Assembly (NCBI RefSeq): GCF_008710275.1
Contig: NZ_VYQE01000002.1
Span: 731,522 to 795,521 of the forward strand
Direction: 5' to 3'
DNA: 64,000 nt
DNA from: Histidinibacterium aquaticum
GTDB lineage: Bacteria > Pseudomonadota > Alphaproteobacteria > Rhodobacterales > Rhodobacteraceae
Part shown: piece after piece, positions 1,166-52,088 of the stretch
Numbering within the stretch: the first letter of the stretch is position 1
How the letters are laid out: every line of letters begins with the position of its first letter
Notes under the pieces: model-generated
What the model was told of the DNA's origin: nothing
Database searches by the model: none
The model's input: only the letters and a program-made list of their open reading frames with translations
Translations under genes and position numbers: made by a program

Positions 1166-4100
1166 GTGCCCGAGACCGATCATCAGCATCCCAGGCGGCG
1201 GGTGCCCGAGGAGAGCGTTTCCGGCGCCAATCCCAGGGCGCCCTTCGTGGAGCTCGGCCTCGCCTCCTGCTTTTCCTTCCTGCGGGGGGCCTCGGATGCC
1301 GTAGACTTCGCGCTGGAAGCGCGCGAGCTGGGCTACGACGCGCTGGGGATCGCCGATCTCAACACCTTCGCCGGTGTCGTGCGGCTGCATACCGAGGCCA
1401 CCACCGCGCAGATCCGTCCCGTCATCGGCACCCGGCTCGCCCTCGTCACGGGCGAGGTCTTCCTCGCCTATCCCACCGACCGCGAGGCCTACGGCCGGCT
1501 CTCGCGGCTGATCTCCAAGGGTCGTCGCGAGGATCCGCAGGGCGGCTGGCAGGAGAAGGGGCTCTGCGAGATCACCCTCGAGGACCTGGCGCGCGAGAGC
1601 GAGGGCGTCGTGCTCATCGCCGTGCCGCCCGAGGACCTTGGCGCCTTCGCCCGGGCCCTGCCCCGGCTCGCGCGGCGACTGCCCGCCCTGGGTTACCTCG
1701 CCGCGGCCCACCTCTACCGCGGCGACGACCGGGCCCGGATCAACCGGCTCGACGCCCTGGCCGGCCGGCACGGGTTGCGGATCCTCGCGACCAACGACGT
1801 GCTCTACCACGCCCCCGACCGGCGACCGCTGCAGGACATCATGACCTGCATCCGGGAGAAGACTACGGTGGCGGAGGCCGGCTTCCTCCTGGAGAAGAAC
1901 GCCGAGCGGCATCTCAAGTCGCCGCAGGAGATGGTGCGGCTCTTCGACGAGTGGCCCCATGCCATCCAGGCCGCCCGCGCCGTGGCCGATGCCTGCCGCT
2001 TCTCGCTCACCGAGCTCGCCTACGAGTATCCGCGCGAGGTCATCCCGCTCGAGATGACGCCCCAGGCCCGGCTGGAAGAGCTCACCTGGGAGGGTGCCGC
2101 GCGGCGCTATCCCGACGGCGTGCCGGAAGAGACGCGGGCGGTGCTGGAGAAGGAGCTCGCGATGATCGGGCGGCTCGACATCGCCCGCTACTTCCTGACC
2201 ATCCACGACATCATCCGCTTCGCCCGCGACGAATGCGACCCGCCCATCCTCTGCCAGGGGCGCGGTTCGGCCGCCAATTCCGCGGTCTGCTACGTGCTGG
2301 GCATCACCGCCGTGGACCCTGCGCGGCACCAGCTGCTCTTCGAGCGCTTCATCTCGGAAGAGCGCAAGGAGCCGCCCGACATCGACGTCGACTTCGAACA
2401 CGAACGGCGCGAGGAGGTGATCCAGCACATCTACCAGAAGTACGGCCGTCACCGGGCCGGGCTCTGCGCCACGGTGATCCACTACCGGCCCCGCAGCGCG
2501 GTGCGCGAGGTGGGCAAGGTCATGGGCCTCTCGGAGGACGTGACCGGGGCGCTCGCCCGCACCGTCTGGGGCGCCTGGGGCAAGGAGGTCGGCGCCGAGC
2601 ATGTGGCCGAGGCGGGGCTCGATCTTTCCGATCCGGTGCTGCGCAAGACGATCATCCTCGCCCGCCAGCTCGTGGGCATGCCGCGGCATCTCAGCCAGCA
2701 CGTGGGGGGCTTCATCCTGACCGAGCGGCCGTTGACCGAGACCGTGCCCATCGGCAACGGCGCCATGCCCGACCGCTCCTTCATCGAGTGGGACAAGGAC
2801 GACATCGACGCGCTCGGCATCCTAAAGGTCGACATCCTCGCGCTGGGGATGCTCACCTGCATCCGCAAGGGCTTCGACCTGATCGCGGCGCACTACGGCC
2901 AGCGCTGGACCCTGGCCAGCGTTCCGCAGGAGGACCCCCGGGTCTACGACATGCTCTGCAAGGGTGACTCCGTGGGCGTCTTCCAGGTCGAGAGCCGGGC
3001 CCAGATGAACATGCTGCCCCGCCTGCGGCCGCGGCAGTTCTACGATCTGGTCATCGAGGTCGCCATCGTCCGGCCCGGGCCGATCCAGGGGGACATGGTG
3101 CATCCCTACCTGCGCCGGCGCTCGGGAGAGGAGCGGGTGGAGTATCCTTCGCCTGCGCCGCCGCACGATCCGCAGGAGCTCAAGTCGATCCTCGGCCGGA
3201 CCCTCGGCGTGCCGATCTTCCAGGAGCAGGCGATGAAGATCGCCATCGAGGCGGCGGAGTTTTCCCCGGCCGAGGCCAACGAGCTGCGCAAGGCCATGGC
3301 GACCTTCCGCTCGAAGGGCACCATCGGCCAGCTGGAGGACAAGATGGTCGGCCGCATGGTGCGCCGCGGCTACGAGGAGGACTTCGCCCGCCGCTGCTTC
3401 GACCAGATCAAGGGCTTCGGCGAATACGGCTTCCCCGAGAGCCACGCGGCGAGCTTCGCGCTGCTGGTCTACGTCTCGGCCTGGATGAAGTGCCACTACC
3501 CGGACGTCTTCTGCGCGGCGCTGCTGAACTCACAGCCAATGGGCTTCTACGCGCCGGCGCAGATCGTCCGGGACGCGCGGGAGCACGGGGTGACGGTGCG
3601 GCCGCCGGACGTGAATTTCTCGGACTGGGACTGCGGGCTGGAGCCCATGGCGATGGGCTACGGGGCCCTTCGCAAGACTATGCGGAGCGAAGCGCCCTCC
3701 GACGTCCGAAAGGCGCTTCCCTCCTCCGGCGCTCCGGCCGTGCCGCCTGCGGCAGGGGCCGTGCCCGACCGCCCCCCGCGGTCGGGCACGGCCCCCGGTC
3801 TTGAAGAGGCGTCCGGCGACACCACCCGGCTCCCGATGGAGCCGGAGGACGCCGGCACGCCTCCCTTTGCCGTCCGCCTCGGCCTGCGCCAGATCGGCGG
3901 GATGCGTGCGGAGATGGCCCGGCGTCTCTCCGAGGCGCGGGACGCCCCCTACCGCGACCTCAAGTCTTTGCAGGAGCGCGCGGGTCTGACCGCGCCGGTC
4001 ATCCGACGGCTGGCCGAGGCCGACGCCATGCGCTCGATGTTCCTCGACCGCCGCCAGGCGCTCTGGGAGGCCAGGGGCCTGCGCGACGCCCCCGACCTGC

Positions 4101-4687
4101 CGCTCTTCCGGCAGACCCGGGACGAGGGCGAGGAGCGGCAGGTGCCCCTGCCCGCCATGCCGGTCTGCGAGCAGGTGGTCGCCGACTACCAGACGCTGCG
4201 GCTCAGCCTGAAGGCCCATCCCATGGCCTTCCTGCGCAAGTCGCTCCACCGCCAGGGCTACCTGCACATGCGCGGGCTGGAGGACAGCCGTCCCTGGCAG
4301 CGGGTCAAGCTCGCCGGGCTGGTGCTGATCCGCCAGCGGCCGGGCAGCGCCAAGGGCGTCTGCTTCGTCACGCTGGAGGACGAGACCGGCGTCGCCAACC
4401 TGGTGATCTGGCCCAAGGTGCTGGAGCAGTACCGCAAGGTGGTCATGCAGTCGCGCCTGCTGGTGGTGCATGGATACGTCCAGCGCGACGTGGAGATCGT
4501 GCACGTCGTGGCCGAACGGCTGGAAGACCGGTCCGACGCCCTCCTCCGGCTCGCGCCCGAGGGTCTCTCTCCCGCCCTGTCCCGCGCCGACGAGGTGAAC
4601 CGCCCGGTGGAGGGCCGGGTTCGCGGGCCGTCCCACAGCCACCCCAGGGACGTGCGGATCATCCCCAAGAGCCGCGACTTCCACTGA
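1166..4687 (+). CDS. dnaE2: Error-prone DNA polymerase DnaE2 (ImuC)
   Basis: This is a C-family polymerase that performs translesion synthesis with ImuA/ImuB. The protein is 1173 residues from GTG 1166, which has GAGAGG just upstream; an in-frame GTG at 1130 is the alternative start. An N-terminal PHP domain starts with CFSFLRGAS. The catalytic aspartates lie in PDIDVDF (residues 404-410). The finger/thumb follows and an OB-fold near the C-terminus covers about 4290-4520. Unlike typical family members, it carries a low-complexity Pro/Ala/Ser-rich insertion of about 60 residues (nucleotides 3664-3855) just before the conserved LGLRQIGGM segment. That insertion is encoded by strong inverted repeats but keeps the frame open. 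Confidence 0.95.
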   Translation: MPETDHQHPRRRVPEESVSGANPRAPFVELGLASCFSFLRGASDAVDFALEARELGYDALGIADLNTFAGVVRLHTEATTAQIRPVIGTRLALVTGEVFLAYPTDREAYGRLSRLISKGRREDPQGGWQEKGLCEITLEDLARESEGVVLIAVPPEDLGAFARALPRLARRLPALGYLAAAHLYRGDDRARINRLDALAGRHGLRILATNDVLYHAPDRRPLQDIMTCIREKTTVAEAGFLLEKNAERHLKSPQEMVRLFDEWPHAIQAARAVADACRFSLTELAYEYPREVIPLEMTPQARLEELTWEGAARRYPDGVPEETRAVLEKELAMIGRLDIARYFLTIHDIIRFARDECDPPILCQGRGSAANSAVCYVLGITAVDPARHQLLFERFISEERKEPPDIDVDFEHERREEVIQHIYQKYGRHRAGLCATVIHYRPRSAVREVGKVMGLSEDVTGALARTVWGAWGKEVGAEHVAEAGLDLSDPVLRKTIILARQLVGMPRHLSQHVGGFILTERPLTETVPIGNGAMPDRSFIEWDKDDIDALGILKVDILALGMLTCIRKGFDLIAAHYGQRWTLASVPQEDPRVYDMLCKGDSVGVFQVESRAQMNMLPRLRPRQFYDLVIEVAIVRPGPIQGDMVHPYLRRRSGEERVEYPSPAPPHDPQELKSILGRTLGVPIFQEQAMKIAIEAAEFSPAEANELRKAMATFRSKGTIGQLEDKMVGRMVRRGYEEDFARRCFDQIKGFGEYGFPESHAASFALLVYVSAWMKCHYPDVFCAALLNSQPMGFYAPAQIVRDAREHGVTVRPPDVNFSDWDCGLEPMAMGYGALRKTMRSEAPSDVRKALPSSGAPAVPPAAGAVPDRPPRSGTAPGLEEASGDTTRLPMEPEDAGTPPFAVRLGLRQIGGMRAEMARRLSEARDAPYRDLKSLQERAGLTAPVIRRLAEADAMRSMFLDRRQALWEARGLRDAPDLPLFRQTRDEGEERQVPLPAMPVCEQVVADYQTLRLSLKAHPMAFLRKSLHRQGYLHMRGLEDSRPWQRVKLAGLVLIRQRPGSAKGVCFVTLEDETGVANLVIWPKVLEQYRKVVMQSRLLVVHGYVQRDVEIVHVVAERLEDRSDALLRLAPEGLSPALSRADEVNRPVEGRVRGPSHSHPRDVRIIPKSRDFH
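3689..3795 (+). repeat. Inverted repeats inside the dnaE2 coding sequence
   Basis: Two palindromes lie within the in-frame insertion of dnaE2. The stronger has perfect 18-bp arms, 3755-3772 and 3778-3795 (right arm gcggtcgggcacggcccc), around a five-C loop. The weaker pairs gaagcgcc (3689-3696) with ggcgcttc (3712-3719). The encoded residues are low complexity and lie where other DnaE2 proteins are continuous. This suggests that a mobile or palindromic repeat inserted without disrupting the frame. Confidence 0.75.
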
Positions 4688-4960: not shown

Positions 4961-5917
4961 CTACATCCGCACCACGACCTTCCCGGTCGCCGACCGGCTG
5001 CGCAGGAGGTCCAGCGCCTCTCCCGCCCGGTCGAGCGGGAGCACATGACTGACGTGCGGACGGAGCCGGCCCTCCGCGTACCACGCGAAACAGGTCTCCA
5101 GGCTCTCCCGGAGGACATCGGGCGCGAAGTCGAGATAGCCGCCCCAGTAGACCCCCGCGACCGAGACGTTCTTGACCAGCAGGTGGTTCGCCCGGATCTC
5201 CGGCACCGTCCCGCTCGCGAAACCGATCAGCAGGATCCGGGCTTCTGGTCGGCAGGCCGAGAGCGCGGCGCGGAAGAGCTCACCGCCCACGGCGTCATAG
5301 ACCACGTCCACGCCCTCGGCCTTCAGCCGGGATTTGATCTCGGGATCCTCGCTATCGAAGACCTCGGCCGCACCAGCAGCCCGCGCGACCTCCGCCTTGT
5401 CCGGACCGCGCGCCACCGCCAGCACCCGGGCGCCGAGCGCCGCGCCGATCTCCACCGCCGTCAGACCGACGCCCCCGGCCGCGCCGAGAACCAGCAGCGT
5501 CTCGCCCGCCGCGAGACGGCCCCGCCGGGTAAGCGCGAGGTGCGAGGTGCCGTAGGCGATCTGGAAGCCCGCCGCGACCTCGGACGGCATGTCGTCAGGC
5601 ACGGCCACGCAGCGGTCGGCCGGGAAAATCCCCGCCTCCGCCAGCCCGCCCTGCCCGGCATAGACCGCGACGCGTGTCCCGAGCCCCGGCACTTCGACGC
5701 CCGCGCCGAGCGCCTCCACCCGGCCGCAGAGCTCGAGGCCCAGGGTAAAGGGCACCTCGGGCGTGGCCTGATAGGTCCCGCGGGCGAGCAGGAGGTCCGC
5801 GTGATTGAGACCGCAGGCCTCTATGCGAAGACGAACCTCCCCGTGTTCGGGCTCGCCCGGCTCGACCTCGGCGAGCACCGGCGCCCCGTCATGGCTCAGA
5901 ACGCGGAGCGCCTTCAT
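4961..5917 (-). CDS. NADPH:quinone oxidoreductase family protein (MDR, zinc-independent)
   Basis: This is a 318-residue medium-chain reductase of the Qor-like branch. An N-terminal GroES-like domain (roughly 1-120, with CGLNHADLL near 35-43) is followed by a Rossmann domain with the dinucleotide loop GAAGGVG (145-151). The structural and catalytic zinc cysteines of alcohol dehydrogenases are absent, which fits quinone or enone reduction with NADPH. The C-terminus ends in the usual SATGKVVV-type strand, so the gene is complete. It is transcribed alone, towards dnaE2. The natural substrate cannot be told from sequence. Confidence 0.85.
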   Translation of the reverse strand: MKALRVLSHDGAPVLAEVEPGEPEHGEVRLRIEACGLNHADLLLARGTYQATPEVPFTLGLELCGRVEALGAGVEVPGLGTRVAVYAGQGGLAEAGIFPADRCVAVPDDMPSEVAAGFQIAYGTSHLALTRRGRLAAGETLLVLGAAGGVGLTAVEIGAALGARVLAVARGPDKAEVARAAGAAEVFDSEDPEIKSRLKAEGVDVVYDAVGGELFRAALSACRPEARILLIGFASGTVPEIRANHLLVKNVSVAGVYWGGYLDFAPDVLRESLETCFAWYAEGRLRPHVSHVLPLDRAGEALDLLRSRSATGKVVVRM

Positions 5918-52054: not shown

Positions 52055-52088
52055 CCGCCCGCCGCGCGCTAGGCCGCGCGGCGGGCGG
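52055..52088. terminator. Bidirectional terminator between ppsA and the antiporter gene
   Basis: Perfect 14-bp arms ccgcccgccgcgcg (52055-52068) and cgcgcggcgggcgg (52075-52088) enclose a 6-nt loop. The antiporter stop codon lies in the loop, so one arm encodes that protein's last residues (AARRAA). It is shared by the convergent genes. Confidence 0.75.

Follow-up and report, generated by a model that had tools for sequence, protein, structure and literature searches.

Why does a gene for an error-prone DNA polymerase carry a dense set of hairpins inside its reading frame, and where did these hairpins come from? The question is raised by dnaE2 of the marine bacterium Histidinibacterium aquaticum, located near the beginning of a 64,000-nucleotide stretch of DNA analysed here as a whole (hereafter the window). 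DnaE2 is thought to act together with ImuA/ImuB.

An in-frame insertion in DnaE2

The dnaE2 reading frame is open from position 1130 to position 4687 of the + strand. According to the N-terminal consensus of relatives, the GTG codon at 1166 is the likely start. The product contains the Pfam domains PHP, DNA_pol3_alpha, DNA_pol3_finger, HHH_6 and OB, and is 65-82% identical to 38 relatives. The gene was identified as dnaE2 from these DnaE-type domains and from its high identity to DnaE2 genes, annotated or aligned; its plasmid relatives carry the annotation error-prone DNA polymerase. DnaE-type polymerases were also the top fold matches of the predicted structure.

The original prediction was that about 60 extra residues interrupt the protein ahead of the LGLRQIGGM motif. 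This was borne out by the alignments. The excess amounts to 63 residues in the multiple alignment and to 67-68 residues as compared to a 13-residue state. The additional stretch lies between LEPMAMGY and FAVRLGLRQIGGM, and the frame stays open across its whole length. The linker is 81 residues long in the window, as compared to 13, 13, 13 and 44 residues in four congeners (G001-G004). Because the congener linkers are that short, the extra residues are, as read from the alignments, an insertion. Indeed, the protein match to all four congeners stops at query positions 87-100 and restarts at positions 154-156; three of them have a bare loop and the fourth a loop of intermediate length, so that the insert of the window is missing in all four.

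The heptamer TGGAGCC occurs at 3639-3645 and again at 3837-3843, 198 bp apart, and removal of this interval would leave a protein reading DCGLEPEDAGTPPFA. A target-site duplication is not claimed because a 7-mer match is unremarkable, according to a rough estimate, and because locus L177 also has the MGY residues after LEP, which places the break later.

Table 1. Coordinates, in the window, of dnaE2, its predicted disordered loop, the inserted stretch and the hairpins.
Feature	Position	Strand	Evidence
dnaE2, error-prone DNA polymerase III alpha homologue	1166..4687	+	Pfam domains, relatives' identity
Predicted disordered loop, residues 836-904 of the 1148-residue frame, between strands 830-833 and 907-910	3653..3859	+	AlphaFold pLDDT <50
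Inserted stretch, 67 codons, between LEPMAMGY and FAVRLGLRQ	3662..3862	+	absent in congeners; codon statistics
Imperfect hairpin, 18-nt arms, 83% paired, loop of 5	3684..3724	.	inverted-repeat search, RNA fold
Weak hairpin	3727-3740		RNA fold
Small hairpin TGCCGC-CT-GCGGCA, immediately 5' of the 18-bp palindrome	3741..3754	.	sequence, RNA fold
Perfect 18-bp palindrome, loop of 5; core resembling the Rhodobacteraceae nested palindrome (model R1)	3755..3795	.	31.7 bits
Hairpin enclosing a perfect 8-bp pair	3808..3853	.	inverted-repeat search, RNA fold

The insert is rich in hairpins and looks non-coding

Two inverted repeats had been predicted within the insert, and both are present. The larger, with its five-base loop, is paired at 18 of 18 positions (3755-3772 / 3778-3795). 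The second, of 8 bp (3827-3834 / 3839-3846), was found in the sequence as well as in the fold. In total, four weaker hairpins accompany the 18-bp palindrome (Table 1). The insert RNA folds at -132.3 kcal/mol (z -7.65), a value equalled by none of 200 shuffles; dnaE2 flanks of equal length fold at z -2.10 before the insert and 0.09 after it. No stem of 12 or more was found in five mononucleotide shuffles of the window. In 400 kb sampled from the same genome, a single further perfect stem exceeded 12 bp, and the window itself contains one more, of 14 bp, at 52055. The stem of the 400-kb sample belongs to an AT-rich palindrome of 18 bp whose loop measures 5 nt (L276, 9930-9970, G000:C1). An Rfam scan of positions 3400-4100 (E <= 1) returned one sub-threshold match, outside the palindrome.

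At the level of codons, the insert stands apart from its gene. GC contents at the three codon positions are 0.78/0.70/0.82 in the insert, 0.71/0.45/0.93 upstream and 0.77/0.45/0.95 downstream, and the codon score of the insert is lower than that of every one of 105 windows taken from the rest of dnaE2. Codon statistics of the insert look non-coding, unlike those of old coding sequence. In the AlphaFold model, obtained on 39 sequences (mean pLDDT 73.4, pTM 0.64), the predicted disordered loop sits ahead of the HhH domain, and the two strands that border it would form a hairpin with an exposed turn.

The same loop has received insertions many times

Among 112 distinct DnaE2 linkers, window included, 46 have at least 18 residues (up to 105) and 60 have 12-13 residues; this set is a non-random sample of loci fetched by similarity, the first of each identical linker being kept. 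By eye, the long linkers are mostly unrelated to each other, with a few Paracoccus-type and Erythrobacter-type ones alike. When Rhodobacterales were sampled evenly, 7 of 105 DnaE2 loci had at least 18 residues and the others 12-15. This sample comprised 106 loci, the greater part of the places listed; 93 were parsed, 12 of the other 13 were read by eye (all short) and L245 was left unread. Broken down by taxonomic order, the rows with long linkers number 28 of 36 for Sphingomonadales, 5 of 26 for named Rhodobacterales and one of two for Hyphomicrobiales, with 13 of 117 among unnamed rows. On a FastTree phylogeny of the 181 DnaE2 sequences left after removal of rows shorter than 300 residues, identical cores and unparsed linkers, the short and long states change at least 18 times, or 15 times if long is set at 30 residues or more; these changes were counted without separating gains from losses and without a shuffled-label control. 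In 12 plasmid DnaE2 regions from other groups, hand-picked from 60 of 710 records, 11 loops were short and one, of Sinorhizobium, was longer.

The position of length variation was then read from 76 aligned DnaE2 sequences (75 of 80 fetched loci plus the window). Inserts of at least 8 residues occur in many sequences at only three places: after residue 166 (34 sequences), after residue 838, the loop of the window (30 sequences), and after residue 1159 (26 sequences). Four more sequences have an insert two residues before the 838 site. The site after residue 166 (about 1645 in the window, which has no insert there) likewise receives insertions recurrently, for the most part in Sphingomonadales, and several of its inserts are repeat-like by eye, for example PGLDPGSRSS. 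The site after residue 1159 was rejected as a repeat site; by eye it mostly holds lineage-conserved sequence and not repeats.

Several loop inserts have dispersed copies. At E <= 1e-5, 8 of the 12 other inserts tested match elsewhere in their own genomes. All six sphingomonad-type inserts do so: L108 matches 33 other places, L111 17, L121 and L125 about five each, L106 three and L118 one short one. Two of the six rhodobacterial inserts, those of congener G003 (a GTAG-type repeat) and of L149, also have dispersed copies. For the inserts of L063, L101, L156 and L177, no copy beyond themselves was seen at E <= 1e-3 among the matches listed, which extend to about E 0.005. Thus, judging by these copies, the DnaE2 loop inserts often appear to be mobile repeats.

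DnaE1, the replicative paralogue and the only gene compared with DnaE2 for loop inserts, behaves differently at the matching loop. None of the 25 parsed DnaE1 loci from genomes having DnaE2 loop inserts shows an insert of at least 8 residues there, the largest excess being 6 residues; at other places DnaE1 length varies more mildly, by up to 22 residues. These 25 are from 26 loci, L347 being unparsed; L358 ends just past the loop, and G590 gave no DnaE1 match. Recurrent use of the DnaE2 loop by unrelated sequences argues that the segment before the HhH domain is a permissive, recurrently used insertion site.

The core of the insert resembles a Rhodobacteraceae nested palindrome

The insert had been taken for a palindromic repeat element. 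Judged by whether other copies exist, this claim fails in its strict form. Searched by blastn against its own genome, the insert has no second copy (best other place E 0.2), and the exact palindrome has no other copy in 394 genomes of the family, its own included. A plasmid, phage or viral source was also rejected, neither insert nor palindrome having a match in the collections of viral contigs, plasmids and phages searched. What stands is an in-frame, hairpin-dense and non-coding-like insert that relatives lack, and the looser reading of its palindrome as a diverged member of a family with relatives in the same genome. The suggestion that such hairpins could affect mRNA or mutation rate received no support from these results.

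When the 192-nt insert was compared by blastn to 198 family genomes, its own included, seven others matched (best E 1.2e-6, per genome), and all of these matches lie at the palindrome core or close around it. The core CCCGACCGCCCCC...GCGGTCGGG is common to the window palindrome and to the Rhodobacteraceae nested palindrome. A pattern made of the core arms was found at 36 places in 31 of 295 genomes, and a reversed control pattern at 31 places in 29 of 295. Since the control is about as frequent, bare core arms are no commoner than a control, and only a common interior marks the family. Such an interior, 46-48 nt long and not part of the query, is shared by 21 of the 36 places, which make up the nested-palindrome family; 14 places look unrelated and one is the window, this comparison covering the core-arm matches, with the control-pattern matches left out.

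A covariance model, R1, was built from 15 copies of the nested palindrome. The outer arms of the model, CCCGACCGC / GCGGTCGGG, are present in the window, a circular observation as the arms had been taken from the window. The interior hairpin of the model (GGGCGGG..GCTT..CCC) is absent from the window palindrome, where 24 nt are missing; other short forms of the nested palindrome exist (L311, L315). The family ends GGGCAGC / GCTGCCC are also absent and are replaced by GGGGCCGT / ACGGCCCC, paired but different. With model R1, the window palindrome obtained 31.7 bits (E 0.0086) and was the top match in 464 kb of its own genome; it was not among the matches listed from a whole-genome run in which 150 of 9834 candidates were scored. 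Relatives of the model occur in the same genome, full-length at C1:225713 (E 3.8e-7) and weaker at C5:135092 (E 0.02). Members were also found in congeners G003 and G002, and none in a search of G001 and G004. When random hairpins of the same composition were aligned to the family, 0 of 3000 aligned as well as the window palindrome; this test and the count of core-arm places are partly circular. The family link is itself partly circular, since it was a query taken from the window that led to the family. Considering these points together, the window palindrome is probably a shortened and diverged member of the Rhodobacteraceae nested-palindrome family. Searched against the other DnaE2 loop inserts (31 loci), model R1 gave one weak match, in L087 (E 0.079), outside the gene match.

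The surroundings of 17 family loci were compared. Five (L304, L306, L313, L324, L327) have common neighbours; in L327, one of these genes is cysteinyl-tRNA synthetase-like and the other citramalate-synthase-like. The remaining 12 showed mutual matches only for the pair L319 and L322 and, weakly, for L305 and L328. As five genomes hold the palindrome between the same two genes, some members of the family may represent an ancient intergenic element that has been conserved. An Rfam scan of eight family loci returned nothing but tRNAs, in L328.

GTAG repeats were rejected as the source of the window insert, though the same genome has them: L196 (G000:C4) contains, at 353-440 and 5434-5520, GTAG-type repeat pairs about 48 bp apart, of the kind found inside dnaE2 of congener G003. 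Between the open reading frame ending at 778 and dnaE2, the window contains two inverted copies of AAATATCCCGGGG near GGGCAGCGCCC (858-908 and 1058-1085). The insert in the dnaE2 loop of Jannaschia aquimarina (L149) includes a similar repeat.

Origin and retention of the insert

We consider it rather likely that hairpin-rich non-coding DNA, with a shortened family palindrome at its centre, entered a permissive DnaE2 loop and was tolerated. In this lineage, dnaE2 would have acquired about 200 bp of such DNA where the chain turns from one short strand to the next, directly before the HhH domain. The shortened member of the Rhodobacteraceae family would form the centre of the inserted DNA; the core palindrome would descend from that family, and the other hairpins would have arrived with it. 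Retention of the insert would be due to a length divisible by three, to the lack of a stop in frame and to the tolerance of the loop for disordered additions. Tolerance, and not benefit, would account for its retention. In Rhodobacterales and Sphingomonadales, the same loop has many times been the entry point of unrelated sequences, often of repeat elements.

The palindrome could instead be unrelated to any repeat family, and reflect a chance or template-switch inverted duplication in a loop grown by ordinary indels. Exact copies are indeed absent elsewhere, the family ends are missing from the window, the control pattern is as frequent as the core arms and four of the six rhodobacterial loop inserts are likewise without copies. 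However, the core is identical to that of copies sharing an interior that was never queried, and no random hairpin was equally similar to the family. Moreover, the small hairpin directly 5' of the large one apparently (by eye) also exists in several family copies. An unrelated palindrome is thus unlikely in our judgement, without being far-fetched.

In a further reading, retention of the inserts would be more than neutral. The loop would then be a landing site for unrelated palindromic repeats, spanning lineages, and the repeat-derived disordered tails at the HhH-side face would alter the work of the polymerase with ImuB or the sliding clamp. We regard such non-neutral retention as improbable; if true, mobile palindromes would repeatedly retune inducible mutagenesis. 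That the insert is a functional, lineage-specific protein segment under selection, for example a mutasome contact, appears quite improbable. Its reading frame is intact, and it lies beside the HhH region of a polymerase thought to work with ImuA/ImuB; yet it is predicted to be disordered, its codon statistics look non-coding, other lineages mostly have unrelated sequences there by eye, and among the congeners three of four have the bare loop and the fourth a different insert. A role of the hairpins in regulating dnaE2 mRNA, by attenuation, decay or ribosome pausing, would be in line with the very strong fold. We hold it for very improbable, as the long loop is missing in most relatives and no T-run follows the palindrome; the absence of a T-run downstream of the stem also led us to reject an intrinsic terminator. 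Finally, palindromes are error-prone and the insert is known in the species from one strain and one assembly, but an assembly or sequencing artefact is scarcely credible for about 200 nt in frame with flanks conserved on both sides, in a genome 99.99% complete, when many other genomes have similar insertions at the same loop.

With tolerated entry of a family palindrome as the favoured explanation, non-coding palindromic DNA would become protein at one permissive DnaE2 loop, many times, while DnaE1 of 25 genomes is clean there. The loop inserts offer a natural series in which one may ask if the elements alter DnaE2 activity or are simply tolerated. They also limit any functional reading of DnaE2 length variation.

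Comparison with known systems

Rickettsia palindromic elements (RPE), reportedly described by Ogata et al. in 2000 and 2002, are said to be stretches of palindromic DNA, about 150 bp long, that lie within genes and are translated in frame. The review PMC10969869 presents them as the classic case of translated palindromes. Compared by description only, RPE and the window insert have in common an in-frame insertion in an ORF that is absent from orthologues. RPE families are repeated within each genome, whereas the window insert is single-copy by blastn.

The GTAG and CGTC REPs are closer in setting. The study of Di Nocera et al. 2013 (PMC3733652) lists DnaE2 among the proteins with intragenic REPs; like the window insert, these are short, in-frame palindromic repeats in replication and repair genes. 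By our own reading, the dnaE2 insert of congener G003 contains a GTAG-type repeat with many copies in its genome. According to Table 1 of PMC3733652, GTAG REPs have a terminal GTAG tag and a 5-13-bp stem, and CGTC REPs a CGTC tag and an 8-9-bp stem. The window palindrome differs from the former by its 18-bp stem and by the lack of GTAG at its ends, and from the latter by the lack of a CGTC tag and by its longer stem.

PMC3919608 describes DnaE2 as strongly variable in length, also in its core, in contrast to DnaE1 and PolC. The heterogeneity resembles that seen here, but the available part of that source names no site or repeat element. In the literature covered, mainly open-access and without the 2013 supplementary table of positions, we found no report of one DnaE2 loop common to two orders as a landing site. 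Palindromic repeats inside DnaE2 have been known since 2013; what deserves to be followed up is the recurrence at one loop. According to PMC3733652, REPs in genes of the same category occupy different sites, recB apart, whereas a single DnaE2 loop is repeatedly used here. The dnaE2 insertion is of an ordinary kind; what is unusual, locally, is its place.
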